Positions 4,928 through 33,386 of a stretch of DNA of 46,934 bases are shown here, piece after piece; the first letter of the stretch is position 1, and every line of letters begins with the position of its first letter. The translations under genes were made by a program, and so were the position numbers. Below the pieces are notes generated by a model that did not search any database, was not told where the DNA came from, and was given only the letters and a program-made list of their open reading frames with translations. Source of the stretch: a virus; the IMG/VR virus record IMGVR_UViG_3300027743_000012, positions 1 through 46,934 of that record, one strand, 5' to 3'.

Positions 4928-6145
4928 ATGAAGTGTTCACCAATTTGGACGGAGACAGAGGCTCTGTTAGCAAGCGGAGCTAGACGCATTATACACCAGG
5001 GCGGTCAGAATAGCGGTAAAACCGTAAATATTCTTGGAGCGCTAGCCAAGACGCTGTCGGAGGAGAGGGAGCCTAGCGTAAATACAGTTACTTCACAGAG
5101 TTTTCCGCACCTAAAGGGTGGCGCACTAAGGGATTTTGAAACGTATATATATCCTACTTTTAAGCGAGCTATAAGTAAATACCACAGGACAGACCATTTG
5201 TTTACGTTTACTAGTGGCTCTATATTAGAGTTTAAGGTCTTTGAAACTGAAATGGCTGCGCATGGGCCTAAAAGAAAACGATTGTTTATAAACGAGGCTA
5301 ACACTTTCCCATATCCAATCTTTTTTCAGCTAGACTCTCGGTCGGACCAAACGATTATAGACTATAACCCTAGTTTGCAATTCTGGGCGCATGAAAAACT
5401 ACATCACCAGGATGGCAACCATCTTCTCATTAGCGATCATACGCATAACCCTTTTCTTAGTCCTAGTAAGCACCAAGAAATAGAGGATATTTGTATATTT
5501 GGCAGAGATGATGATGGTAAAATAATCTTTAATGACAAGGGTGAACCACTGGTTATTAGAGGCGACTATGAATTATGGAAGGTTTACGCTAGAGGCTTGA
5601 CAGGTAATATACAAGGTATTATATTCCCTAAATGGCAGATGATAGACGAGTATGACTATCCTGAGGACACAGATAGCATATACAGTATTGACTTCGGTTA
5701 TACTAACGACCCATCTGCCTTGATTAAACAGACCCTGGTAGGCAACACTCTATTCATTAAGGAACTGGCCTATGAAAGCCCACTAAGTGCGAGAGAAATC
5801 GTCAGGCTACTGAGGGCCAATGATTTTTCTTTTGAGGAAAGCCCCCTCTACTGCGAACATGACCCCGATATGATTAGGGAGCTAAGAAAGTTCGGAGTTT
5901 ACAATGCTCTCGCTGCCAGGAAAGGAGCAGGTAGCATAAAGGCCGGTATCAGACTACTAAACACCTTCGATGTACGTTACACCAATAATAGTAAGAACAT
6001 CCACAAGGAGCGTAGTCTATACATTTACGAATTTGACAAAGTTTCAGGTAAATTTACTAATATACCAATCGAGTATAACAACCACGCTATGGACGCCATC
6101 CGATATGGTACCTATAGTCATTACTTGCGAGCAGAAGCAGCATAG
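4928..6145 (+). CDS. terL: Terminase large subunit
   Basis: A 405-residue packaging motor with an N-terminal ATPase and a C-terminal nuclease. Walker A is GGQNSGKT (25-32) and Walker B is LFINEAN (119-125). The RNase-H-like nuclease shows SIDFGYTNDP (253-262, D255), CEHDPDM (309-315) and HAMDAIRYG (386-394, D389), the usual acidic residues. The length is typical. It translocates DNA into the prohead and cuts it. The ATG is two bases after the stop of the small membrane protein, so the two genes are probably translationally coupled. The small subunit lies 2.8 kb upstream, outside this operon. Confidence 0.97.
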   Translation: MKCSPIWTETEALLASGARRIIHQGGQNSGKTVNILGALAKTLSEEREPSVNTVTSQSFPHLKGGALRDFETYIYPTFKRAISKYHRTDHLFTFTSGSILEFKVFETEMAAHGPKRKRLFINEANTFPYPIFFQLDSRSDQTIIDYNPSLQFWAHEKLHHQDGNHLLISDHTHNPFLSPSKHQEIEDICIFGRDDDGKIIFNDKGEPLVIRGDYELWKVYARGLTGNIQGIIFPKWQMIDEYDYPEDTDSIYSIDFGYTNDPSALIKQTLVGNTLFIKELAYESPLSAREIVRLLRANDFSFEESPLYCEHDPDMIRELRKFGVYNALAARKGAGSIKAGIRLLNTFDVRYTNNSKNIHKERSLYIYEFDKVSGKFTNIPIEYNNHAMDAIRYGTYSHYLRAEAA

Positions 6146-6286
6146 CGAATGGGAGGGTGGGGGCAAATTTAGTAAGCGAGCCCTGGGCAAGTCCGAACAT
6201 TAGCCCTCATCGCCCGTTCGTTATTTTGGTTTCTTCCTTCGGCAATTAGTAGGCCCGGCTAGTCTTAGTAGGGTAAATTTTTAATT
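6146..6286. other. Intergenic spacer, nothing assigned
   Basis: A 141-bp gap between the large terminase and the next small gene. It is G-rich at the start (GGGAGGGTGGGGGC) and holds short GGGC/GCCC complementary segments, but no terminator with a T tract and no promoter that I would defend. Confidence 0.3.
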
Positions 6287-6490
6287 ATGAAGTTAGATAT
6301 TGTAACAAACCAAGCTATTGAACAAACCACAGACAAAATCATAGCGCTATCCCGAGTGTTAGAAATTGTCACTGACCCTAATAGAGTACTTCCAGTCGTA
6401 GCCCAAAGGCTAGCAGAAGTCTCTTGCGAAAAGCTATTAAACCTAATTAATGGAGTCAGCACTGCAACTACACAAGAGGGAAATCATTAA
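6287..6490 (+). CDS. Hypothetical protein between terminase and portal
   Basis: A 67-residue mostly helical protein (IVTNQAIEQTTDKIIALSRV... LAEVSCEKLLNLING) without a recognised domain. Its stop codon is one base before the portal start ATG at 6492. The position suggests a minor head or packaging factor, but this is inferred from location only. Confidence 0.55.
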   Translation: MKLDIVTNQAIEQTTDKIIALSRVLEIVTDPNRVLPVVAQRLAEVSCEKLLNLINGVSTATTQEGNH

Positions 6491-6491
6491 G

Positions 6492-7925
6492 ATGCCTACA
6501 CAAACGCTGGATTTAACCGGCGGTCTTTTTGGCACTATTGCCAGGAAGCGTATTCCATTCCCTACTGGCAAAGATTTTATTCCACTAGATAATGATAGCA
6601 ATGTCTTATATCTAACCAAGGATGGGCAACCACATTGGCTAGGCATGGACAAGAAAAACATGCAGTATTGGGCCTATCAATACTGCGCACCACTGGCCGG
6701 CGTAATAGACCGACTAGCGGAAGCCGATACTAACGGTCGTGTGAAGTTCTTGCATGACAAGGACATGAAGAAGGTAGACAATATATCCAAGGTTCCCAAG
6801 CTGGCCAGGATAAACACTTTGCTAAAGAACCCTAATCCATTTCAAACTTGGCAGGAGTTCAATAGCGAGCAGATTGTCTACTGCAAAATCTTCGGGTATT
6901 GCCCGATATTTTGCGTAGGGCCAAAAGGTATGGACAAGAGCTATACAACTGGCATGTTCAACCTGAACCCTGTGTTCTGTAGCCCTACAAAGAAGGATGA
7001 AGTAGACATCTATTCTGATAAAATTAATCCTGTAGACTACTGGGAGATTAAGATTTTCGGTCAGTCTATCAAGATACCTCCAGACGATATTTTAGTAGTT
7101 AAAGACGGATTCATAGACAACGATGGCGATGGCCTACCGATGTCTAAATTATGCGGTCTCGATTTTGCGATAAGCAATATTTGTGCAGCTATGGAAGCTG
7201 ACAATGTGCTTTTACGCAAGAAGGGGCCGCTTGGCATTTTTAGTTATGACCCGAAGCCGGATAATGTAGCTGGCTATCTTCCAATGACTAATTCCTCAAA
7301 GGATGAATTGCAGAATGAGCTATCTAGGTACGGTCTGTCTCTTAACATGCTACAGTACATAATTTCCAGGACTCCTATAAAGTGGAACCCTGTATCTTTC
7401 GATGCTACACAATTAAAAACTAAGGAAACAATACAACAAGGAACTGACCAGATTTGCGATAGGCTAGGTTATCCGGCAGAGCTAATGTCCGGCAAGAACG
7501 CAACCTACGAGAATAGGCACACGTCAGAAAGATTCCTATACCAGAACAACATCATCCCTTTTTCTTTGAGGAGAATGGCTCGCTACGATAAGTTTTTCGA
7601 GCTAGATGACTACACACTCATACAAGATTTCACACACATAGCCGTCTTACAGGAGGATATCCAGAAGGCGGCCACAGCGTTTAAGGATAAGACTACAGGC
7701 TTAGACTTGATGTGGAAGTCTGGTCTTTTATCCTATAACGAGTACAGGGTTGAATTGAAGATGGACAAAATAGCAGGCAAAGACGATTATTTTTACACTG
7801 ATTATACTAGAGAAAATGAAGTACCATCCGAAGATAGAGGAGGCAATGCGCCAGGCGCTACCAATAAACTACCGGACAGTAAAAACGGAAGTAAGCCAAA
7901 GCCAGTTGGACAAAAGAGTAGTTGA
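6492..7925 (+). CDS. Portal protein (HK97/SPP1-like)
   Basis: A 477-residue protein with the portal pattern. The central part contains YWEIKIFGQSIKIPPDDIL, matching the portal segment before the crown. The late clip/stem part has FDATQLKTKETIQQGTDQIC followed by RLGYPAELMSGKNATYENR and IIPFSLRRM, as in HK97-type portals. It forms the dodecameric ring at the packaging vertex. The frame is open upstream to 6450, but the ATG at 6492 directly follows the previous stop and is preferred. The low-complexity C-terminal tail (about 430-477) overlaps the prohead protease gene by 110 bp. Confidence 0.9.
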   Translation: MPTQTLDLTGGLFGTIARKRIPFPTGKDFIPLDNDSNVLYLTKDGQPHWLGMDKKNMQYWAYQYCAPLAGVIDRLAEADTNGRVKFLHDKDMKKVDNISKVPKLARINTLLKNPNPFQTWQEFNSEQIVYCKIFGYCPIFCVGPKGMDKSYTTGMFNLNPVFCSPTKKDEVDIYSDKINPVDYWEIKIFGQSIKIPPDDILVVKDGFIDNDGDGLPMSKLCGLDFAISNICAAMEADNVLLRKKGPLGIFSYDPKPDNVAGYLPMTNSSKDELQNELSRYGLSLNMLQYIISRTPIKWNPVSFDATQLKTKETIQQGTDQICDRLGYPAELMSGKNATYENRHTSERFLYQNNIIPFSLRRMARYDKFFELDDYTLIQDFTHIAVLQEDIQKAATAFKDKTTGLDLMWKSGLLSYNEYRVELKMDKIAGKDDYFYTDYTRENEVPSEDRGGNAPGATNKLPDSKNGSKPKPVGQKSS

Positions 7926-8529
7926 AGGCTATGGCAATATGTGGAGTTCTAAAAACGAGCATCATGAGAAGTTCGTTAAGGGCTGTTGGGCTAGGTCTAT
8001 AAAAGAGAATGGACCAGGTAGCAACTCAAACTATCAAATCAAGTTCAGGGATAGGCATGCGCGTGCGTGTTCACTATTCGATGCACTGGAAGAAGATAGC
8101 CAAGGCTTGCACTTCCGCACAAAACCGTTAGACCCTGTATCCTGGGCAGACGACTTATTAGTTCAGCTAAGAAGTGGTACAATGAACAATTTCTCTAATG
8201 GTTTCAAGTTCAATTGGGACAAGGTAGAGTATGACGACAAGGATGATTGTCTAGTAGTAATCGAGTCAAGACTATTTGAAATATCAGCCGTAGAGGTTCC
8301 GTCAGATATGGAAACATATGCACAGCGTAGCCTGGACAGGCTGGAACTAAACGACGAAATTGAAGGCTTCATAAATGACTTGTCTAAAAGCAAGCAGCTT
8401 GAAGCTAGAGACCTTATATCTAGATGTATGATGGCTGGTAGTAAAGAGCCGCTGGATAGAAAAGCACTCACTGAACGTAGCCGCTCTAAATCTGGATTGG
8501 ATTATCATTTCCTAATTAAAAATCTCTAA
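7816..8529 (+). CDS. Prohead maturation protease (peptidase U35 / HK97 gp4-like)
   Basis: A 237-residue serine protease that trims capsid proteins during head maturation. Visible family features: VVEGYGNMW (35-43) in the first strands, FRDRHARACSLFDALEED with the probable catalytic histidine H81, NNFSNGF (124-130) with the probable nucleophile S127, and LFEISAVEVPSD (153-164), the conserved family ending. The ATG at 7816 overlaps the portal gene by 110 bp; an alternative ATG at 7846 still overlaps by 80 bp and would keep the family core. It lies directly before the capsid gene, as usual. Confidence 0.9.
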   Translation: MKYHPKIEEAMRQALPINYRTVKTEVSQSQLDKRVVEGYGNMWSSKNEHHEKFVKGCWARSIKENGPGSNSNYQIKFRDRHARACSLFDALEEDSQGLHFRTKPLDPVSWADDLLVQLRSGTMNNFSNGFKFNWDKVEYDDKDDCLVVIESRLFEISAVEVPSDMETYAQRSLDRLELNDEIEGFINDLSKSKQLEARDLISRCMMAGSKEPLDRKALTERSRSKSGLDYHFLIKNL

Positions 8530-8533
8530 AAAG

Positions 8534-10153
8534 ATGAAAAAAACCTATTTCAATCCAGCGGCTATGCACTTTGTGCAGCACTTGCCTAAGATACAAAGCC
8601 GCCGGATGCCAGGGACAAGACTAGCTGCATATAAAAGTGATGCTAGCGATAATCCTTCTGACGATACGGCTACAGAGGAGGATTTGCTAAAGAAGATTGA
8701 GCAGCGTGTACAGGCTCAATTGAAAGATGTAGCCTCAAAAGAAGAATTGGAGGCTATCCGTAATAGCCAAACTGAGGGTCTTAAAGGTCTGAACCTAGAC
8801 CAACTGCGTAGTATCGCTGATGAAAAAACTGGTGTCTTAGCAATGATGACTCGTCAGGGTTTAGAAATGCAGCGTCTTGAAACTAAGATGAATAGCATGA
8901 ACAAGCAAGGTGAGGATATGTCTGTTAGGGCCCAGGTAGTACGTTGGATGGAAGAAAACAAAGGTGCTATCAAGCAGATACGTTCAGGTGAGGCAGCAGC
9001 TTCACTAAAGCCTTTGGATTTGCAGATGCGTGTAGTAGCAAGTCCAATGACTGTTGCTACAGTTAATCCGTCTAACTCACAGTACATTACAAGGGTAGAA
9101 GTAGAGCCTGGAATTAATGATTTCCTTAGAGCTGCACCAACCTTTTGGGACTATCTTACCAAAGGCAAAACCAATGCGTCTACTTATGTATGGGTGAACA
9201 AAACTAATCCACAGGGCGCTGCTGCGTGGATAGGGCCAGGCCAGTTGAAACCTGGTGTTAGCTTCGAAATGGTTACTGACATTAGCAATGCCAAAAAGAT
9301 TGCTGACAGTGCAAAGGCCACTACGGAGCTACTCGAGGACATTGACGGCATGGTGACTATGATTGAACAGGAGTTGCGCTACCAAGTTATGATAAAAGTG
9401 AACGCTACCCTGCTGAACAACGTAGGCTCTGCTACCACTCCAACTGGTATCCGTCAGCTGTCTACGACTTATACGTTGACTACCATCAAGACTACGACTC
9501 CGAATATGGCTGATGCTATTCGTGCAGCGATAGCCCAATTGCGTGGTGGTTTGCTAACCGGCGAAATCACAGTGTTCATTAATCCGGTAGATTCTGCAAA
9601 TATGGATATGCAGAAAGCTACATCTTCCGGTGTCTATGTCCTGCCACCATTTATGACAGCAGACGGCAAAACTATTGCCGGTGCTAAAATCGTGGAAGAA
9701 GCCGGTGTGCCAGCAGGGTTTTTTCAGGCAGGATTTATGCGTTTCTATAGAGTCCTGATTTACAAGCCATTTACCATTAGCTGGGGTTGGGAAAATGATG
9801 ACTTCACTCACAACTTAGTTACAGTAGTTGGTGAGATGAGGCTACATCAGTTCTTCAACCAAATTCATACAGGCGCATTTATCTATGATAGCTACGCCCG
9901 TATCATCCCGCTAATAACAGCCTCCGGTACTACTAGGGAGACTCCTCCAGAAGGTACTCCAGAAGGACAGCCTGACGCACCTGGCTCTTATAGCCCTCAT
10001 GACACTACTCATGGTGGTGGTGTAGATGAAGGTAATGTTAGGGAGGGGCCTGCTAATGTAATGGGTGTTAAACCTATTACAGGAACGACTGGAGTTAAAC
10101 CTCCAGACATAGGCAGAGGCCCAGTAGAACCACCAAAACCTGAACAAAGATAA
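8534..10153 (+). CDS. Major capsid protein (HK97 fold, with N-terminal delta domain)
   Basis: A 539-residue protein. Residues about 45-150 form a charged coiled coil (EEDLLKKIEQRVQAQLKD...) like the HK97 delta domain that acts as scaffold and is removed by the protease. The capsid core begins near RVVASPMTVATV (about 166) and includes an IGPGQLKPGVSFEM segment, an E-loop-like region and VVGEMRLHQFFNQIHTGAF (about 430-450). After about 465 there is a Pro/Gly/Thr-rich tail (ETPPEGTPEGQPDAPG) of some 70 residues, which is not part of the HK97 fold and may be surface-exposed. It follows the protease by four bases. Confidence 0.9.
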   Translation: MKKTYFNPAAMHFVQHLPKIQSRRMPGTRLAAYKSDASDNPSDDTATEEDLLKKIEQRVQAQLKDVASKEELEAIRNSQTEGLKGLNLDQLRSIADEKTGVLAMMTRQGLEMQRLETKMNSMNKQGEDMSVRAQVVRWMEENKGAIKQIRSGEAAASLKPLDLQMRVVASPMTVATVNPSNSQYITRVEVEPGINDFLRAAPTFWDYLTKGKTNASTYVWVNKTNPQGAAAWIGPGQLKPGVSFEMVTDISNAKKIADSAKATTELLEDIDGMVTMIEQELRYQVMIKVNATLLNNVGSATTPTGIRQLSTTYTLTTIKTTTPNMADAIRAAIAQLRGGLLTGEITVFINPVDSANMDMQKATSSGVYVLPPFMTADGKTIAGAKIVEEAGVPAGFFQAGFMRFYRVLIYKPFTISWGWENDDFTHNLVTVVGEMRLHQFFNQIHTGAFIYDSYARIIPLITASGTTRETPPEGTPEGQPDAPGSYSPHDTTHGGGVDEGNVREGPANVMGVKPITGTTGVKPPDIGRGPVEPPKPEQR

Positions 10154-20832: not shown

Positions 20833-22233
20833 ATGCCAACATTAGTATTAAACGCATACTCGATAGCATATCCTCTTATAACTAATCGTATAAGGGCATC
20901 CATATACTATCAGAAAACTCCAGCGGCAATAGTATCCAGTATAATAGATACTACCATAGGCCATCCTGAAAAGGTATGGACATTCTCAGGTCTACCAAGA
21001 GAGAACTATGGGTTCTTACTGGAGGAGATTAATAGCACAGGTGCTGCCGTCAGGAACTTAGCTAAGTTTGACGTAGTACCAGGAGAACTGGAAGGTTCGC
21101 TAAACAGGGCTGACGAGCAGTTCACAGTAGACGTTACACCTGGAGTAGTATCCGGTGTGAACACACTTTTATTTAATGGAGTAGCAGGCATACCAAACTA
21201 CATTGGATGGGATATAGTTCCTTCTCAACTAAATGGTAGAGGGATACTATCCAAGCGTCTTGACTATACTTGGAACAAGACAACCGGAGAACTAAAGCTG
21301 GTGCAGACCGATGATGTGTTCGAGGCTATGACAGACTGGAACATACACTTTGTTCCAGTTAGCCAACCAGCAGGTAACAGCTACCCTTCTATAAACGACT
21401 TCCAGATTAGTGTTAAGACAGCAAACTATATTGCAACGGCAGATGATTTTGGTAGCAAGATTATATGTGAACCTGTTAGCGGGTACATGGAGCTAAAGCT
21501 GCCTGATATAGCGCTGGTTCCTCAAGGAAGAAAACTGATGATAGAGGTGCAGGCTAATTATGATTGCAGCGTTAAGCTAGTAACCTTTGGCCCCGAACCT
21601 ATTAAGTTCGCAAGAGGTACACTTATAGCATCAAGGAACGAAAGGTTCTCTGTCTATAAGTATCTAAGAGGAGCAGTTCCAGAATGGAGAATAGACGACC
21701 TGTACGGTAACTTTATTCTTTGCGGAACTATCGTATCAACAGACTCTGTTCAGTTCGATACTATAAATGCCAGGCTTCTGGATGGTTCTTCTCTAAGCAA
21801 GTTTACATACGCAAGGCTATATGATTACGTCTTGTCATTGCCTGCTGCCCAGGTAGTAAACTTCGATGATTGGGGTAGCAATCCAACATATTATTCATTA
21901 GCCAATTCATTGTCAGGAGGAAGTCTTAACCTATTTAGAATACCAAATAGGCGTAACCTTTTTGAACGTGGTTTGTCTACAGGTAAGGCCGGAGACAAGA
22001 TTATGGATAGCATCAAAGCGCATAGCCATAACTTTCCGGCAGATGATAATGTAGAGAACTGGAACCAAGACTTAGCAGCATGGACTCCACGCCTGGCATC
22101 GACTACTCGTAGAGGTGGTGACTTTGACTACAACAACAGCGAGCTAGGCCATAAAATATATTTGACAAGTGACACAGGTGGGGCAGAAACTATGCCACAA
22201 CATTACCTAATTAATAGATACGTATTACTATGA
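20833..22233 (+). CDS. Tail collar-like fibre protein
   Basis: A 466-residue protein. The C-terminal third has features of a phage tail collar domain: GNFILCGTIV (start), FRIPNRRNLFERGLSTGKAG, DSIKAHSHNF and the ending GGAETMPQHYLINRYVLL. In the family, the conserved HsH histidines (AHSHNF) and the final Y-strand belong to a metal-holding receptor-binding tip. The start is the ATG at 20833, one base after the previous stop; an upstream TTG at 20812 lies inside the preceding gene and is not used. It overlaps the spike gene by 4 bp. Confidence 0.8.
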   Translation: MPTLVLNAYSIAYPLITNRIRASIYYQKTPAAIVSSIIDTTIGHPEKVWTFSGLPRENYGFLLEEINSTGAAVRNLAKFDVVPGELEGSLNRADEQFTVDVTPGVVSGVNTLLFNGVAGIPNYIGWDIVPSQLNGRGILSKRLDYTWNKTTGELKLVQTDDVFEAMTDWNIHFVPVSQPAGNSYPSINDFQISVKTANYIATADDFGSKIICEPVSGYMELKLPDIALVPQGRKLMIEVQANYDCSVKLVTFGPEPIKFARGTLIASRNERFSVYKYLRGAVPEWRIDDLYGNFILCGTIVSTDSVQFDTINARLLDGSSLSKFTYARLYDYVLSLPAAQVVNFDDWGSNPTYYSLANSLSGGSLNLFRIPNRRNLFERGLSTGKAGDKIMDSIKAHSHNFPADDNVENWNQDLAAWTPRLASTTRRGGDFDYNNSELGHKIYLTSDTGGAETMPQHYLINRYVLL

Positions 22234-25200
22234 TTTATAATCCAGCAGCACCATCGGTCTATGGACATAAGTTTAATAGGATAAAACCTATGCAAGTTCT
22301 GCATGTGCCGGAAGGTAGTACAGAGCCTAACACTACCGACCTGTCGCCACAGCTACGTGTTATACATGGTGAGCTAAAGCTGTACCTTGAAGGCGAATGG
22401 ATTAGTATTGGAGGAGCAGCAAGTACTATAAATGTAAGGAACGGTGTCCAGGTAGACTCGGAAGGTTACCTAACATGGGGTGGCAATGTAGATACAAATA
22501 CAACTATAAAGTTTGCATCCGGTAATGAGTTTTTGCAATATACTAATGATGGTACTATAAGAGGTACTAGGATATATCAAGGACTTGGATATGTAAGTCT
22601 AGAGGGTTCTGGAAATTCTGGCCCTACCAATTATACAAGTGTTGCAAATGCTACCAATTACCAAGCATACTTAAGAACTACTATTACTAATGCAAGTACT
22701 TCTGCTGTACAATATATATCTAATATATTTTCAAATGGATATACTGCATACATGGACGTTGCTACAAGCACAGACCCTACTGTTCCTAATATGCGGTTTG
22801 AAGTAGGAGGTAACTATTTTACATTTAAGAGGATGCGTGTTTCTGACGATAGCGAGCAGCCTATGGAAATGTACTTAAAGAATTTAGTTACTGGTACAGG
22901 AAGCAATATATTATACTATAATTCAAGTACCGGCAAGGTTACATATGGTGCTGCTCCTACTCCTACTGCTGCTGGCATAACAGAATTGACAGGTGACGTA
23001 ACAGCTACCGGGCCAGGAAGCGCAGTTGCTACATTGGCAACTGTAAATAGTAATGTCGGTGCATTTACTAATGCAAATATAACAGTTAATGCTAAAGGAT
23101 TAGTTACAGCAGCGGCTAATGGAACTGTATATACAGCTAGTAATGGTTTGAATAAGAGTGTTAATGATATACAACTAGGTGGTTCACTAACTAAGAATAC
23201 TGCAATAACTAGTGGTTCGTTTACGTTTCAAATAAACGGCGCTTCGCCATCTGGATTTGAAGGGCTAGTAAAATTTTCAAGCGTAGGCGGTACAGCAACT
23301 AACTCCACACTTAAAGTAGCTAATGATGCTAATAATGCACCAGCTATTACTGGTCAAAGTTCTAGTGCATCAGCTAATTGTACAGGTGTAAATGGATGGA
23401 CTGCTAGTGGTACAGGTGTTAGAGGAACTGGCGGTGGAACTGGAATAGGAGGATGGTTTGACTCTGATAGTGGATTGCCACTAAAACTAGCTAGAAATGT
23501 GGCTAGTGTAGGAAATGTTGTTCCTGCAATTACATTAGATTTAGGCAATACAGTTGGTATGATTGCCGGTACAGGGCAATCTATAAACTTCAATATGGCA
23601 TCAACTACAACAGGTTCGCAGCCAACAAATAAAATTATATCAAAATGGTTAGACGCCACTCATGCTACTCGTACTTCTGAATTTTCAGTACAGGGTGTTA
23701 ATAGCGGTGCTTCAATAGAGAACTTATTAACTCTACCTGGTAGTGGAAAGTTGCAGCTAAATAAGTATGGTATAGGAACATTCTTTTCGGCAGGAACGCC
23801 TCCTTATTCTTTGGGGGTAGACGCTCTTGGAAATTTAGTTGAGTACACTCCTAGCGCTGGTGGTGGAACATATACAGCTAGTAATGGTTTGACTATGGCT
23901 TCCAATAATGTTAAGTTAGGTGGAACACTGACAGAGGCTACTTTAATAAATCAATCGTCTACTTTTGGATTGAAGCTATTGAGTTCGTCTATGACAGCCA
24001 ATGCACTTCATGTAGAATCTTCTATACCAAGTGGTTTACAAGTTGTATATGTTAAGAATAGTTCTACTACTGGTGGATATGGAATGAGAGTTGATATGGC
24101 TGGTAGTAGTGGTGGTGCAGCTATAATTGTAAGCTATCCATCCACAACAGGAACTAATATTGGAATAAGTGCAACTGCTACAGCTATAGCTGTTCAAGCA
24201 GTTTGTTCTGCTGGAAATGCTGCTAATAATGCTGCTGTATCTGCAAATAATCAATCTACTGTTCAAGGTTTTGGAGTATATGCTATTGGTGGATTGATAG
24301 CATCGAAAGGACTTATTAGTGGAACAAATTCAGGAACAACTAGAATAGCTGGTAGCTTTGAAACACAGTCGAGTACTGAAAGTAATACTATACATACAGC
24401 ATTAGAGATAGTTCATACAACAAGTGGAACACAGCCATTAGCAGGATTTGGAGTAGGTATGAACTTTGCATATATGTATCCTGGTACTAACATTAATAAG
24501 AACAATGCTAGAATACAATCTAAATTTGAAACAGTAAATGGTATAAACTCTGGAACAACATTAGAGTTTCTAGTAAATCTAAATGGAACTAACGCATTGG
24601 CAACAGCCTTTTCTCTTTTGGGGAACGGCCAAGCGCAGCTTAATAAATATACATTAGCTGCATTTGATGTCACTACTCCAGATAAGGCTTTGGGTGTAGA
24701 TTCGGCTGGTAAATTAGTAACATATGTCCCTGCTGCTGGTGGTGTTAGTGGTAACATATATACACAGGATGGAACTATAACAAGTTCAGTAAGAACAGTA
24801 AATCTTAATGGAAACGCTTTAGGATTTGATTGGCTAGGAGATACTACAAATACTTTAGTACTTTCAAAATCCGGCCCTCTATGTACATTTCAACTTCATC
24901 TTGCTAATGGTAGTAATCAAAGTGATGTAGTAGTATTTCCAGAGAGCCATCAGTATATAGTTACCAATGGAACTAATACAGCTTCACTTATACTTGACCC
25001 TACTGGTGCAACATTTAATTGTGGCGATGGTACTTTTGTTGGTACTTTATATTTAGCTGGTAATGGTAATGTAACTCTAAATGCTCCTAACTTTAATATT
25101 ACTACTGCTGGATATCTAGAAATATATGCTGGCTTTGTATATTTGTCAGGAGCCACAGGCCCAGGCTATGTACTTACAGATGTAGCTGGCGATGGCATAC

Positions 25201-26762
25201 TTAGCTTACAGCCACCTTCCGGTGGAGGCGGTGGAGTTAGCACAGGCAATAAAGCATACTATGTTTCTCCAAGTGGTAACAATGCTAATGACGGACTGTC
25301 ACCAGCTACAGCATGGCAGACAATTGCTAAGGTTAACTCGTTCACATTCGCAGGAGGCGACTCTATTCTTTTTGAGGGAGGAAAGATTTTTAATGATGCT
25401 ATACTACATTGCCAAAGTGGAACTGCCGGAAATAGAATTACATACGGAAGTTACGGTAGTGACAGAGCAACTATTCAATCAAATAACGCATACTGTATAA
25501 CTATTGATGATGTAAGTTATGTTGTAGTTAGAGATTTAATAGTGCAAGGAATAAATCATGTAGAGGAATATTGGGGGCCAGATGGTGTTAGCATTGGAGT
25601 TGGATATGGTACAAGTGCTACAGTTGCATGTACAGATATAAACTTAATTAATCTAAAAATAGATGGATATGCTGGCGGAAGTGGTATAGGAATTTGGAGT
25701 TATGCTACAACTTCTACTATATCAAACATACTAATAGAGCGTTGCGAAGTTTCAGGATGCTGTAATGGTATATGGACTAGTTTATCAGAGACTGGAAATG
25801 CTAATACATATACAGGAGTAACAGTAAGAAATTGCAAAGCGTTTAATAACTTTGGTGTATTTAACTATCCTAGCAATTGGAGTGGCTCAGGTATAGTCCT
25901 ATCAGGATGTAATAATTCTATTATAGAAGATTGCGAAGCATATGGTAATGGATGGAGGAATGGTAGTGGCTTTGGTGGCCCTCATGGTATATGGATTTCA
26001 GAGTGTAGCGGGTGTACTATTAGAAATTGCGAGTCTCATCATAATGGTACTGGCGTAGCTGGTGTTAAAAGATTAGACGGAGGTGGATTTGATATAGACG
26101 GTGGATGCCAAAACTGTGTTATTGAATACTGCTACAGTCATGATAATGCTGGTTGCGGTTATGCCCTATTTGAATATGGTTCTCCTAGAGCAGCATACAC
26201 TGGTAATGTAATTAGATATAATTTATCAGTAGCTGATTGTAGGTTATCAAGCATGGGCGCTATTACTATATGGAGTGCAGAATCTGGATTTACTAATAAT
26301 AGAATACACAATAATCTAATTATTATTGATAGCAATAAGATTGTAGCCGGAACCACAGCAGCTATGAAGTTTATTAGTGGAACCTATAATACTTTAAATA
26401 TTGTAAACAACATTTTTATTGTGGATGGTGCAGCTTCTACATTAACTATAGGAACTGTTGGTGGTACTTGGGCAAACAATATAACTTATGCTACCAATGG
26501 TGCTACTCTTAATTATTCTACAGGTTGTACTGTTGCAAATCCTTTACTGGTTAACCATACTATGGAGCCACCAACTGTAGGTGCATATGCACAAAAAGGA
26601 GTTAGAGGTTCTTGTTGGAACTATCAGTTGGGTGGTAATTCTCCAGCTATAAATACCGGAACAAGTACTATATCTGGATACAGTTTTCCAACTAAAGATT
26701 TTTGGGGATTGCCAGCACCGGAAGGCAATAGAAACATTGGCCCTCATGAGTTAGTTCCTTAA
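22230..26762 (+). CDS. Large tail fibre/spike with right-handed beta-helix domain
   Basis: A 1510-residue protein. The N-terminal half contains repeated modules: YTASNGLNKSVNDIQLGG (about 301) and YTASNGLTMASNNVKLGG (about 549), the latter two ending with an LNKY...LGVDxxGxLVxYxPxAGG motif, and a third, shortened opening near 844. From about 1009 (KAYYVSPSGNNANDGLSPAT) the protein is a right-handed parallel beta-helix with cysteine-rich coils (IEDCEAYGNG, IRNCESHHNG, IEYCYSHDNA), the fold of polysaccharide lyases and phage depolymerases. It probably recognises and perhaps cleaves surface polysaccharide. Catalytic residues cannot be assigned with confidence. It overlaps the previous gene by ATGA. 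Confidence 0.85.
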   Translation: MIYNPAAPSVYGHKFNRIKPMQVLHVPEGSTEPNTTDLSPQLRVIHGELKLYLEGEWISIGGAASTINVRNGVQVDSEGYLTWGGNVDTNTTIKFASGNEFLQYTNDGTIRGTRIYQGLGYVSLEGSGNSGPTNYTSVANATNYQAYLRTTITNASTSAVQYISNIFSNGYTAYMDVATSTDPTVPNMRFEVGGNYFTFKRMRVSDDSEQPMEMYLKNLVTGTGSNILYYNSSTGKVTYGAAPTPTAAGITELTGDVTATGPGSAVATLATVNSNVGAFTNANITVNAKGLVTAAANGTVYTASNGLNKSVNDIQLGGSLTKNTAITSGSFTFQINGASPSGFEGLVKFSSVGGTATNSTLKVANDANNAPAITGQSSSASANCTGVNGWTASGTGVRGTGGGTGIGGWFDSDSGLPLKLARNVASVGNVVPAITLDLGNTVGMIAGTGQSINFNMASTTTGSQPTNKIISKWLDATHATRTSEFSVQGVNSGASIENLLTLPGSGKLQLNKYGIGTFFSAGTPPYSLGVDALGNLVEYTPSAGGGTYTASNGLTMASNNVKLGGTLTEATLINQSSTFGLKLLSSSMTANALHVESSIPSGLQVVYVKNSSTTGGYGMRVDMAGSSGGAAIIVSYPSTTGTNIGISATATAIAVQAVCSAGNAANNAAVSANNQSTVQGFGVYAIGGLIASKGLISGTNSGTTRIAGSFETQSSTESNTIHTALEIVHTTSGTQPLAGFGVGMNFAYMYPGTNINKNNARIQSKFETVNGINSGTTLEFLVNLNGTNALATAFSLLGNGQAQLNKYTLAAFDVTTPDKALGVDSAGKLVTYVPAAGGVSGNIYTQDGTITSSVRTVNLNGNALGFDWLGDTTNTLVLSKSGPLCTFQLHLANGSNQSDVVVFPESHQYIVTNGTNTASLILDPTGATFNCGDGTFVGTLYLAGNGNVTLNAPNFNITTAGYLEIYAGFVYLSGATGPGYVLTDVAGDGILSLQPPSGGGGGVSTGNKAYYVSPSGNNANDGLSPATAWQTIAKVNSFTFAGGDSILFEGGKIFNDAILHCQSGTAGNRITYGSYGSDRATIQSNNAYCITIDDVSYVVVRDLIVQGINHVEEYWGPDGVSIGVGYGTSATVACTDINLINLKIDGYAGGSGIGIWSYATTSTISNILIERCEVSGCCNGIWTSLSETGNANTYTGVTVRNCKAFNNFGVFNYPSNWSGSGIVLSGCNNSIIEDCEAYGNGWRNGSGFGGPHGIWISECSGCTIRNCESHHNGTGVAGVKRLDGGGFDIDGGCQNCVIEYCYSHDNAGCGYALFEYGSPRAAYTGNVIRYNLSVADCRLSSMGAITIWSAESGFTNNRIHNNLIIIDSNKIVAGTTAAMKFISGTYNTLNIVNNIFIVDGAASTLTIGTVGGTWANNITYATNGATLNYSTGCTVANPLLVNHTMEPPTVGAYAQKGVRGSCWNYQLGGNSPAINTGTSTISGYSFPTKDFWGLPAPEGNRNIGPHELVP

Positions 26763-29115: not shown

Positions 29116-29775
29116 ATGGAGCCTTACAAAGCTATTATCGTTCCGTTAGACGAGCCGCCCGTACTACCGCCAGGAGTAGGTGGTGGCCAGCCTCCAGTTC
29201 CAGACAACAGTCTACCGTTATTTCCGTTCCATCCAATCGTAGTCCCTCCAGGTGGAGCATGGCCAGGAGAGCCGCCTACAGTAGGTGGTGGAGACCCTCC
29301 GCATCCTGACAACACGCTACCCGGTGACCTACCCGGTAGTAATCCTAGGCCGGACATTGACCTGCCATTGTTCCCGTTCCATCCGATTGTAGTACCTCCA
29401 GGTGGTAGCTGGCCTACGCCTCCTACCGGTGGTGCGCCACGTCCAGAGCATCCGATTTACTACCCGCCAGGAACAGAACCTCCAGTAGAGCCTCCAGTAG
29501 ACCCTAACGCTCCACGTCCTGACAACACGCTACCTGGGGACTTACCTCCAGAGCCAGTAGACCCTAATGCTCCTTATCCTGACAATACTCTACCCGGAGA
29601 TTTGCCAGGCGGTAGCACTCCTCCGCCTACAGGTGGTGGTGGAAACAGGCCTAGCCATCCTATCAACCTTCCTCCTAACGATAGCGGATACTGGATATTC
29701 GTGTACGTCTATGGACTTGGTTGGGTATGGGTAGCTGTGCCTCCACAGAGGTCTGTGAAAGTAGTTAAGAAATAG
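29116..29775 (+). CDS. Proline-rich repeat protein with aromatic C-terminal domain
   Basis: A 219-residue protein made of repeats around PDNTLPGDLP (about 65, 137 and 156) and LPLFPFHPIVVPPGG (about 34 and 83), rich in Pro and Gly. It ends in an aromatic segment GYWIFVYVYGLGWVWVAVPP (about 191-210). Similar Pro/Gly-repeat proteins with a YW...GWVWV end occur in other phages, where they are regarded as virion or lysis-region proteins of unknown role. The basic tail VKVVKK ends the protein. The terminator at 29798-29831 follows. Confidence 0.7.
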   Translation: MEPYKAIIVPLDEPPVLPPGVGGGQPPVPDNSLPLFPFHPIVVPPGGAWPGEPPTVGGGDPPHPDNTLPGDLPGSNPRPDIDLPLFPFHPIVVPPGGSWPTPPTGGAPRPEHPIYYPPGTEPPVEPPVDPNAPRPDNTLPGDLPPEPVDPNAPYPDNTLPGDLPGGSTPPPTGGGGNRPSHPINLPPNDSGYWIFVYVYGLGWVWVAVPPQRSVKVVKK

Positions 29776-29797
29776 TATTGCAAACCACTTAAATTAG

Positions 29798-29831
29798 CAA
29801 TCAGGGTTATCTGGTAGCCCTGATTGTTTTT
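29798..29831 (+). terminator. Rho-independent terminator before the pectate lyase
   Basis: CAATCAGGG (29798-29806) pairs perfectly with CCCTGATTG (29818-29826) around an 11-nt loop, followed by five T residues. It stands only 5 bp upstream of the pectate lyase ATG, so the lyase is either expressed by read-through or the hairpin works as an attenuator. Confidence 0.85.
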
Positions 29832-29836
29832 ACATT

Positions 29837-31306
29837 ATGCTAAAAATCAACGGATGGGCTACACAAAATGGTGGTACTACCGGAGGCAAAGGTGGAACTA
29901 CTGTAACCGTTTCCAACGAAAATGATTTTCTAAATGCCATAAAAGGAACTGACCCTAAAATAATTTATGTAAAAGGTAAATTTGAAATTGGCTATGCGAT
30001 GGTAGGTTCAAACAAGACGATAGTAGGTCTTGGCTATGATGCTGCTACGATAGGCTGCATTAGATTAGAAGGGTCTAAGAATGTTATCATCAAGAACATT
30101 AGCTGTAGCAATCCTGGCGGCGATGGTATAGCTGCTGCTGGAGCTACCAACTTTTTCATTAGTCATTGCACGCCTAACAACTGTGCTGACGGTTGTATAG
30201 ACATAACCAAAGGCTCTGACTACTACACAGTCGAGTGGTGCAAGTTCTTTTACGACAAGGATTTAGGCCACAACTTCCCGAACCTTGTAGGCAGTAGTGA
30301 TACTGACCCTGACCAAGGAAAGCTAAAGGGAACCTTCCATCACAACTACTACTGGAAGTATTGCACAGACCGTATGCCTAGAGTTAGGTTTGGTCGTCAG
30401 CATGTATATAATAATTTTTACGACCCTGCTGTAGACCAAAAGGTTAGTGCCTTGATAACAGCAGCTATCGGGTCAGAGGTATTAGCCGAGAATAATCATT
30501 TCGAGTCAGGCGATGATGCCTTTGAGATTAGAGAAGATGGAAAGTTAGCAGGCAGAGGTAGCACATATGGGTCTAAGTACATTGGCGACAGGGGAAATGG
30601 AAATGTTAGCACTGTGTTTATTCCTCCATATCCTTATAGCCTGCAAGACGCATCCACCCTGGGTGCTACTGTGAGAGTGACAGCAGGAGTAGACGGTGAC
30701 AGCGACCTGACAGAAGATGGTAGCACAGAGCCACCAGTCCCGCCTAACCCAGGTACAACGCTTAAGGTTAGTGCCGGCGATGATATCATCGTAGACATGC
30801 CAAAGGATTTCACCAGCTTTACTGTAGCCATTACAGGATTAGCGAATGGCTCTTACACAGGCAAAGTAGTTATAACCGGCAATGGCCAGGAAGTCCAGGA
30901 CACGATGACTATATTGGTACGAGATACAACTACTCCACCGATACCGCCACCATCCCTTAGCCCAATCGAGGAGTTCGTGCTAATCAATGCCGGAACTGAC
31001 AGGGACGTAGCTTTTCTTCTTGAGGGAAATAGCTACTCCATTGCAGAGTTTGGGCCGAAACTAAACATCAGGGCTAATGCAACCGGAGCGGCATCCAAAG
31101 TTAAGTTTGTGCTAACAGGTGCTGAAAACAAAATCTATACTGACAATACAAGGCCGTTCGCATTGCATGGCAATAGCGGAACCAACTACTTTTATGGTAC
31201 ATGGAACCCGCCACCTAAAGGACAGATGAAGCTGGTGGCTATACCATATGACAGCGCAGGAGCGGAGCTACCCTCAAAAGAAATAAACTTCACCTTCATA
31301 GCATGA
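29837..31306 (+). CDS. Pectate lyase, polysaccharide lyase family 1, with C-terminal accessory domains
   Basis: A 489-residue enzyme. It opens directly with NGWATQNGGTTGGKGG, the N-terminus of mature PL1 enzymes, so there is no signal peptide. The family core follows: KTIVGLGYDA (60-69), GGDGI (94-98, D97), DGCIDITKGSDYYTVEWCKF (118-137, D118 and D122), a YDK (139-141) and VGSSDTD (151-157). The PL1 signature is DRMPRVRFGRQHVYNN (178-193), in which R179 and R184 match the catalytic RxPxxR. PL1 cleaves pectate by calcium-dependent beta-elimination. After about 290 come two accessory domains: an Ig/Fn3-like one and a C-terminal domain (FVLINAGTDRDVAFLLEGNS) of a type common in Bacteroidota extracellular proteins. 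Confidence 0.9.
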   Translation: MLKINGWATQNGGTTGGKGGTTVTVSNENDFLNAIKGTDPKIIYVKGKFEIGYAMVGSNKTIVGLGYDAATIGCIRLEGSKNVIIKNISCSNPGGDGIAAAGATNFFISHCTPNNCADGCIDITKGSDYYTVEWCKFFYDKDLGHNFPNLVGSSDTDPDQGKLKGTFHHNYYWKYCTDRMPRVRFGRQHVYNNFYDPAVDQKVSALITAAIGSEVLAENNHFESGDDAFEIREDGKLAGRGSTYGSKYIGDRGNGNVSTVFIPPYPYSLQDASTLGATVRVTAGVDGDSDLTEDGSTEPPVPPNPGTTLKVSAGDDIIVDMPKDFTSFTVAITGLANGSYTGKVVITGNGQEVQDTMTILVRDTTTPPIPPPSLSPIEEFVLINAGTDRDVAFLLEGNSYSIAEFGPKLNIRANATGAASKVKFVLTGAENKIYTDNTRPFALHGNSGTNYFYGTWNPPPKGQMKLVAIPYDSAGAELPSKEINFTFIA

Positions 31307-31389
31307 AAGAAGCGTTTATTTTAATGATTGTAGTTGTTGCCATAATGATAGCCGCTGCCGCCGACCAGGATTATGATAGTGACGAATAA
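31303..31389 (+). CDS. Tiny single-span membrane peptide
   Basis: A 28-residue peptide, MKEAFILMIVVVAIMIAAAA, then DQDYDSDE. One transmembrane helix (about 4-20) and an acidic tail. It overlaps the pectate lyase stop (ATGA) and ends just before a strong terminator, so it is the last gene of the late operon. Such last-in-operon small membrane peptides are candidates for lysis functions, but no family is recognised. Confidence 0.5.
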   Translation: MKEAFILMIVVVAIMIAAAADQDYDSDE

Positions 31390-31428
31390 CTAACTAATGA
31401 CAGTTTGTACTCTGTCTGTTGTTGGTGG

Positions 31429-31459
31429 GCCTGGCTAACTAGTTTAGCTGGGCTTTTTT
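31429..31459 (+). terminator. Rho-independent terminator ending the late operon
   Basis: GCCTGGCTAA (31429-31438) pairs with TTAGCTGGGC (31444-31453) with two G-T wobbles around a short CTAGT loop, followed by six T residues (31454-31459). It separates the late structural operon from the early region. Confidence 0.85.
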
Positions 31460-31533
31460 GTCCCTGCCGGATAATAAGCTATAATAAGGTAACAGGCGCG
31501 CGTACAACAATTTTCTGACATAACCAAATATAG

Positions 31534-31553
31534 TTATCCACAAGTTATCCACA
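31534..31553 (+). promoter_or_regulatory. Two perfect DnaA-type boxes
   Basis: TTATCCACA occurs at 31534-31542 and 31545-31553, that is two tandem 11-bp units AGTTATCCACA, one helical turn apart. This is the bacterial DnaA-box consensus. The pair lies 19 bp upstream of the TTAACA element of the early promoter, so host DnaA may help start transcription or replication here (inference). Confidence 0.65.
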
Positions 31554-31572
31554 TTTTGCTTTTGGTCGTCTT

Positions 31573-31607
31573 TTAACATCTTCTTAACAGTTAATTGCAT
31601 ACCTTTA
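31573..31607 (+). promoter_or_regulatory. Early promoter (Bacteroidota type)
   Basis: TTAACA (31573-31578), 21 bp, then TACCTTTA (31600-31607), close to the -7 consensus TAnnTTTG. A second TTAACAG lies at 31584-31590. The same two elements with the same spacings occur at 42449-42483. The first gene starts 24 bp after the -7 element. Confidence 0.7.
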
Positions 31608-31631
31608 CCATTCACCGAAAAGTATTTAGAC

Positions 31632-31784
31632 ATGGCTACGACTATAGACCTGGAAAAAGATATACACGAGCTAAAACAAAAGCTGGTTACAGGTACGACT
31701 AACAACCAAGAAGTTAAAGAGGCTATCAAAAAGCTGGAAGAAAAGAAAAGTAGAGTGTACATTCAAGAATGGCTAGCACAATAA
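31632..31784 (+). CDS. Small helical protein
   Basis: A 50-residue highly charged protein (DLEKDIHELKQKL... KEAIKKLEEKKSR) predicted to be a helical hairpin or coiled coil. It is the first gene after the early promoter. Function unknown; early small coiled-coil proteins often bind host factors, but that is not shown here. Confidence 0.6.
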   Translation: MATTIDLEKDIHELKQKLVTGTTNNQEVKEAIKKLEEKKSRVYIQEWLAQ

Positions 31785-33107: not shown

Positions 33108-33386
33108 ATGGCTATTACACCGAAGAAACTATCGAAGTTGGGCTACATAGTCCTGAAAAATGGCAAGATTAAAGGCAAGCATGTACCGTATATGAAGCCT
33201 GTATTAGACACCGGAGGATTTTATTCCACTAGCTTTGCTTTTGGAAGGACAGGAGAAAGGACTAAGGATTATATCCATCGTGTAGTAGCCAAAGTCCATG
33301 TACCGAACCCTGAAAAGCTACGCAGGGTAACGCATATTAATGGTGACAAATCCGATAACCGTGCTATAAACTTAAGGTGGATATGA
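33108..33386 (+). CDS. HNH endonuclease (short)
   Basis: A 92-residue protein whose C-terminal half is an HNH_3-type domain: DYIHRVVAKVHVPN (54-67, H57), THINGDKSDNRAINLRW (75-91, H76, N84). The N-terminal part is basic. Small HNH genes of this type are often mobile elements or DNA-nicking factors. It is inserted neatly between the recombination gene and a small gene, with an ATGA overlap. The target is unknown. Confidence 0.8.
   Translation: MAITPKKLSKLGYIVLKNGKIKGKHVPYMKPVLDTGGFYSTSFAFGRTGERTKDYIHRVVAKVHVPNPEKLRRVTHINGDKSDNRAINLRWI

Follow-up and report, generated by a model that had tools for sequence, protein, structure and literature searches.

A phage-encoded PL1-family lyase with an exchangeable catalytic head as a candidate depolymerase

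The window analyzed here, a 46,934-nucleotide stretch of viral DNA (IMG/VR virus record IMGVR_UViG_3300027743_000012, positions 1 to 46,934), encodes a 489-amino-acid lyase on its plus strand (29837–31306), which consists of a PL1 head, a Pro-rich linker and a C-terminal module with Ig-like domains. We consider it probable that this protein is an exchangeable phage depolymerase that acts outside the cell on a uronic-acid-rich exopolysaccharide or capsule of a Bacteroidota host, with the C-terminal module placing the enzyme. This reading is based on the PL1 fold with both catalytic Arg residues kept, the presence of an unrelated PF14099 head on the same module and in the same neighborhood in two phage lineages, the location at the end of a tail/adhesin block, the lack of a signal peptide in the phage copies, purifying selection that is strongest on the catalytic domain, and a tail-region protein that also varies its C-terminal end.

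Results

The PL1 catalytic domain

The open reading frame starts with an ATG at 29837, and its stop codon ends at 31306. PF00544 covers residues 55–222 (E = 5.6e-23; 82 bits against the 24-bit Pfam cut-off), and the PL1 matches in the PDB included 7bbv (E = 1.2e-28, the best) and 7xks (E = 2.4e-26), with alignments spanning residue 4–6 to about 285. The AlphaFold model had a mean pLDDT of 73.8, with values mostly above 85 for residues 11–110 and low confidence for the linker (286–330). When this model was used in a Foldseek search, PL1 structures ranked first (7bbv; E = 8e-18, TM 0.81 by target length), and the head is predicted to adopt the right-handed parallel β-helix of solved PL1 enzymes. 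Taken together, we confirmed that the gene encodes a true PL1 domain (residues 1–288; 29837–30700, plus strand) with a match far beyond chance, in agreement with the preliminary description of a PL1 enzyme in a phage. No match to the lyase was found in PHROGs or NCBIfam.

Active-site residues and the Lys-less PL1 branch

A near-complete PL1 signature had been claimed for this protein, which holds for the arginines and the calcium-binding aspartates but not for the conserved catalytic Lys. Alignment with PL1 enzymes placed D96, D118 and D122 (codons 30122–30124, 30188–30190 and 30200–30202; region 30122–30202, plus strand) at the Ca-ligand positions of classical PL1 pectate lyases. Likewise, the RxPxxR motif was found as R179-M-P181-R-V-R184 (RMPRVR; 30371–30388, plus strand), containing the catalytic Arg pair R179 and R184. 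In place of the conserved catalytic Lys, however, the protein has F147 (30275–30277, plus strand), which aligns with PelC K190 and BacPelA K167. Classical PL1 enzymes use a Lys-Arg-Arg set, and the K167A, R196A and R201A mutants of BacPelA are each almost completely without activity (PMC9820310). PfPL1 and VexL, of PL1 subfamilies 2 and 13, are said to work with two Arg and without a catalytic metal (PMC11229556), and loss of the Lys therefore need not mean loss of catalysis. Because the classical set is incomplete, we regard the protein as a PL1-family lyase, not as a proven pectate lyase.

Among about 110 aligned PL1 proteins, Phe or Tyr occurs at the Lys position in the phage lyases (Leu in L088, where the motif following RMPRVR also deviates), in the PL1 of another virus (L086), in a number of PL1s encoded by Bacteroidota genomes and by one spirochaete MAG; the residue is Arg in a gammaproteobacterial/actinobacterial branch and Ile in one protein. 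In the tree, a branch with an SH-aLRT of 87 separates the Phe/Tyr PL1s from the others, and a single state change explains the replacement of Lys by Phe/Tyr when long rows are left out, in trees made by a quick method with the motif columns kept and the Arg branch scored together with Lys. Comparison with Bacteroidota PL1s, which the preliminary description had recommended, thus placed the phage lyases with Lys-less, mainly Bacteroidota proteins. The members from Bacteroidota and spirochaete genomes (L089–L127; 32–41% identity) resemble the window lyase in that H-x-[F/Y]-x-[N/D]-L replaces the Lys motif, and differ from it in having signal or lipoprotein-like N-termini. As judged from these alignments, the Lys-less branch appears to be bacterial, mainly of Bacteroidota, and may act on a substrate other than ordinary pectate.

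Start site and export signal

The absence of a secretion signal, also noted in the preliminary description, was borne out. An in-frame stop leaves 13 non-hydrophobic codons before the ATG, so that no upstream start with a signal peptide is available, and the lyases of four related contigs (L002, L003, L087 and L088) begin at the same residue. Inspection and a hydropathy window, used in place of a trained predictor, detected neither a signal peptide nor a lipobox in the phage copies (the window and these four relatives), whereas the bacterial members of the branch carry a hydrophobic or lipoprotein-like/lipobox-like segment about 25–85 residues before that start. The window lyase thus differs from classical PL1 enzymes in lacking a secretion signal. 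It also differs from type IX-secreted Bacteroidota enzymes, which have a signal peptide and a C-terminal sorting domain: the lyase ends with an Ig-like domain and has neither a signal peptide nor a Pfam sorting domain.

The C-terminal module and the exchange of the catalytic head

The C-terminal module (30722–31303, plus strand), whose Ig-like domains come after the Pro-rich linker, was said to be of a type common in Bacteroidota extracellular proteins. Such homologs do exist, but a profile of the last domain matched proteins, most of them large and extracellular, in no more than 11 of the 390 Bacteroidota genomes sampled, and "common" is therefore too strong. Several of these proteins end in a "YPNP...GIYYLHI"-type tail resembling, by eye, a type IX sorting domain; the phage lyases have nothing beyond the Ig-like domain. 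From these homologs, the module is probably of Bacteroidota origin. Elsewhere in the open reading frames of the examined phage loci the module was not found, except for a marginal match in L187/L188.

Searches with the neighboring Pro-rich protein (PR) and with the C-terminal module yielded further contigs. In L154 and L187, the genes are arranged in the order N1024, TM1, PR and lyase, and the lyase head belongs to PF14099 (E = 2e-22 and 3.3e-19, respectively), with a weak match of the L154 head to glucuronan lyase A (2zzj). L153, L184, L185 and L186 are near-copies of L154, and L188 is one of L187; near-copies were counted as one lineage, so that the PF14099 type represents two related phage lineages. 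The PF14099 and PL1 heads have no similarity at E < 10. The C-terminal 200 residues are nevertheless homologous between the two types of lyase (39% identity, E = 1e-39, for L154), and N1024 (48–68% identical), PR and TM1 are shared by phages of the PL1 and PF14099 types; the window keeps PR and is without N1024. By sequence comparison, a single constant module at the C-terminus, in the same gene neighborhood, thus carries either of two unrelated lyase classes. A match of L154 to a chimeric/designed protein in the PDB was set aside as chance.

Genomic neighborhood and host

Genes for the terminase, portal, protease and major capsid protein lie at 4928–10153, followed by structural and tail genes. 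After the tail genes come several long adhesin-like proteins, the Pro-rich protein (29116–29775, plus strand; adjoining the lyase in PL1-type and PF14099-type phages) and the lyase, which is the last large gene before the apparent replication block. The gene had been described as embedded in a host-recognition cluster; it does lie in the tail/adhesin block, but at its end, not in its middle. Similar capsid proteins and terminases are found in phages of, among other hosts, Flavobacterium, Cellulophaga, Leeuwenhoekiella and Bacteroides, and the host is therefore very probably a member of Bacteroidota. Because the major capsid protein had no more than two weak matches when searched against 390 Bacteroidota genomes, we place the host at the Bacteroidota level only.

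Several further features were observed in this region. PR contains PLFPFHPIVVPPGG repeats between conserved ends. Relatives of it are encoded on about 30 viral contigs (L149–L177), mostly without an adjoining lyase relative. N1024 is a protein of about 1024 residues adjoining the lyase module (L003 4337–7411, L087 4727–7801, L088 1239–4307, L154 3706–6774 and L187 2482–5553); it had no PDB relative, no Pfam match above the cut-off and one weak phage match, and its structure prediction reached a pLDDT of 38.7. Terminator-like hairpins lie directly before the lyase start (29796–29828, plus strand) and after the lyase and a downstream peptide (31427–31455, plus strand), in a region where five such hairpins were found against 3.7 expected by chance. 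Both L002 and L003 have a hairpin at the corresponding place, immediately before position 8001; it is perfect or near-perfect in the window and in these two relatives, and its sequence is unrelated in each. The downstream peptide is a possible membrane peptide of 28 residues (31303–31389, plus strand); its start codon and the stop codon of the lyase overlap as ATGA. The peptide and its relatives (L002 9470–9556 and L003 9464–9541) share a length of 25–28 residues, one membrane span, an acidic DYDSDE tail and an ATGA/GTGA start, and the coding pattern of the tail occurs in only two IMG/VR contigs, both of them relatives. A minus-strand open reading frame at 31439–31762 was not taken as a gene, and a further open reading frame of 92 residues at 33108–33386 looks by eye like an HNH-type endonuclease.

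A large tail-region protein (window 22230–26762; L003 64–3969) differs between relatives at its C-terminal end. The end appears by eye to be a β-helix in the window, with a sub-threshold choice-of-anchor Q match, and is a GDSL/SGNH hydrolase in L003 (PF13472, E = 2.7e-15). An esterase acting beside a lyase would make sense on a coat of acetylated uronate.

Rarity, age and selection

The gene is rare in phages, as had been stated. In tblastn searches of INPHARED (50,697 phage records), no match was found with the lyase, its last domain, the PF14099-type lyase of L187 or PR. In IMG/VR, four query sets gave the same small set of carriers, with PL1-domain identities to the window of 99% (L002), 82% (L003), 76% (L087) and 66% (L088); these were short-motif scans, so the number of relatives is a lower bound. 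L086, an unrelated 110-kb virus, also carries a PL1 (5947–6846; 299 residues, 32% identical), which has no signal peptide and a Tyr at the Lys position and lies near spirochaete PL1s on a very long branch of the tree. Viral PL1 as such is not new, since viral PL1 or "pectate lyase" genes are on record from metagenomes, as reported earlier (PMC8725595; PMC7468147).

When the window was compared with L003, L087 and L088, pS of the catalytic domain was 0.74–0.87 (saturated) and pN was 0.13–0.22, while pN of the C-terminus was 0.24–0.36. The pN/pS ratio of about 0.2–0.3 indicates purifying selection, strongest on the catalytic domain, and the gene is old and long maintained in phages. The preliminary description had proposed capture from a Bacteroidota host, with which the probable origin of the module agrees; a recent capture, however, is ruled out by the saturated synonymous sites.

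Discussion

PL1 and PF14099 enzymes both act on uronic-acid polymers, and for this reason an acidic host exopolysaccharide is the substrate that we infer. In the proposed mechanism, the PL1 β-helix would cleave a uronic-acid-containing exopolysaccharide or capsule by β-elimination, the Ig-like module would be the constant part positioning the enzyme, and the head would be swapped for the PF14099 (glucuronan-lyase-like) domain in related phages, presumably matching hosts with other coats. The preliminary description had left the choice between a depolymerase and an aid to hosts feeding on plant polysaccharide; our results favor a depolymerase whose target would be an acidic glycan of the host. 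In cryoconite phages, too, pectate lyases and GDSL lipases have been listed as putative depolymerases of extracellular polymeric substances (EPS) (PMC7468147).

Domain-swapping phage tailspike depolymerases are the closest parallel in organization, in that an enzymatic part is exchanged on a constant part among related phages and encoded in the tail/adhesin region. They differ from the window lyase, which begins directly with its catalytic domain and is without the usual N-terminal virion anchor, a feature that counts against the depolymerase reading. Its constant part is instead C-terminal, and its heads belong to true lyase families (PL1 and PF14099). The position of the lyase after the tail genes and the constant part with exchangeable heads favor virion attachment, and as the role of the module we slightly prefer a virion anchor to a tag on an enzyme freed by lysis. 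Packaging has a precedent in Aureococcus anophagefferens virus (AaV), which, unlike the phage studied here, is a giant virus of an alga: its particle contains one of its pectate lyases (PMC7507832). The best BFVD fold match of the window lyase is also a putative pectate lyase of AaV.

The most serious competitor, which we rate at somewhat below even chances, is a soluble clearing enzyme that is produced late, stays in the cytoplasm until lysis releases it and then dissolves the surrounding slime or biofilm for the spread of progeny, without being part of the virion. The absence of an N-terminal anchor is consistent with this, and so is the fact that no large gene follows the lyase in the late block. 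The flanking terminator-like hairpins fit as well, as do small one- or two-span membrane proteins of the kind seen in lysis cassettes, encoded beside the lyase (L003, L087 and L088) or ahead of PR (L154 and L187). No Pfam holin or endolysin, however, was found among the proteins scanned, and it is virion-bound enzymes that usually combine a constant module with exchangeable heads. Since release at lysis is a variant of the depolymerase reading, our confidence in the two overlaps; action outside the cell is the ground common to both routes.

Activity itself is not certain because the catalytic Lys is replaced by Phe (Leu in L088) and K167A abolishes the activity of BacPelA (PMC9820310). It is nonetheless unlikely that the protein is a catalytically dead PL1 serving as a polysaccharide-binding receptor protein, an idea to which F147 and the altered motif after RMPRVR in L088 could be taken to point. 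Both Arg and the Ca-binding aspartates are invariant in the phages and under purifying selection, the Lys is likewise absent from many bacterial PL1s that do carry export signals, VexL and PfPL1 are said to manage with two Arg and no catalytic metal (PMC11229556), and the head found instead in related phages belongs once more to a lyase family. That the gene is an auxiliary metabolic one helping the infected host to use plant or algal pectin is very improbable, even though PL1 enzymes are mostly pectinolytic and viral PL1 genes have been read in this way (PMC8725595), because nothing in the lyase would export it via Sec or type IX from a living cell, the phage copies being without the signal peptide or lipobox of their bacterial branch members, and because its head is exchanged for another lyase class in related phages and its gene closes the tail/adhesin block.

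With respect to the depolymerase reading, known PL1 enzymes provide two points of comparison. The pectate lyases PelC, BacPelA (7xks), Verticillium PelB (7bbv) and TmPel (3zsc) share the fold, Ca-binding aspartates and RxPxxR motif with the window lyase at 32–38% domain identity, whereas the latter has Phe for Lys, no signal peptide and a different C-terminal module and is encoded by a phage. The Vi-antigen lyase VexL (6fi2, PL1 subfamily 13), detected by sequence and fold matches, has the PL1 fold and acts without a catalytic metal on an N-acetylgalacturonate polymer, a bacterial capsule uronate (PMC11229556); it differs in being a periplasmic enzyme of the capsule producer, and the sequence similarity is weak.

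A broader proposal, which we offer tentatively, is that Bacteroidota phages carry a cassette consisting of PR, a lyase with the C-terminal module and, mostly, N1024 and small membrane proteins, in which the head swaps between unrelated lyase classes. The enzyme would then be of a non-tailspike kind, freed at lysis to break down the slime of host or biofilm, and its Lys-less PL1 head would cut a polymer other than pectate.

The window lyase draws attention to a branch of PL1 enzymes that lack the catalytic Lys known from textbooks. If the exchange proposed here is true, catalytic domains of a phage depolymerase would be exchanged on a C-terminal rather than an N-terminal constant part, and the PL1 and PF14099 heads on one module would constitute a natural experiment relating lyase class to the coat chemistry of Bacteroidota.
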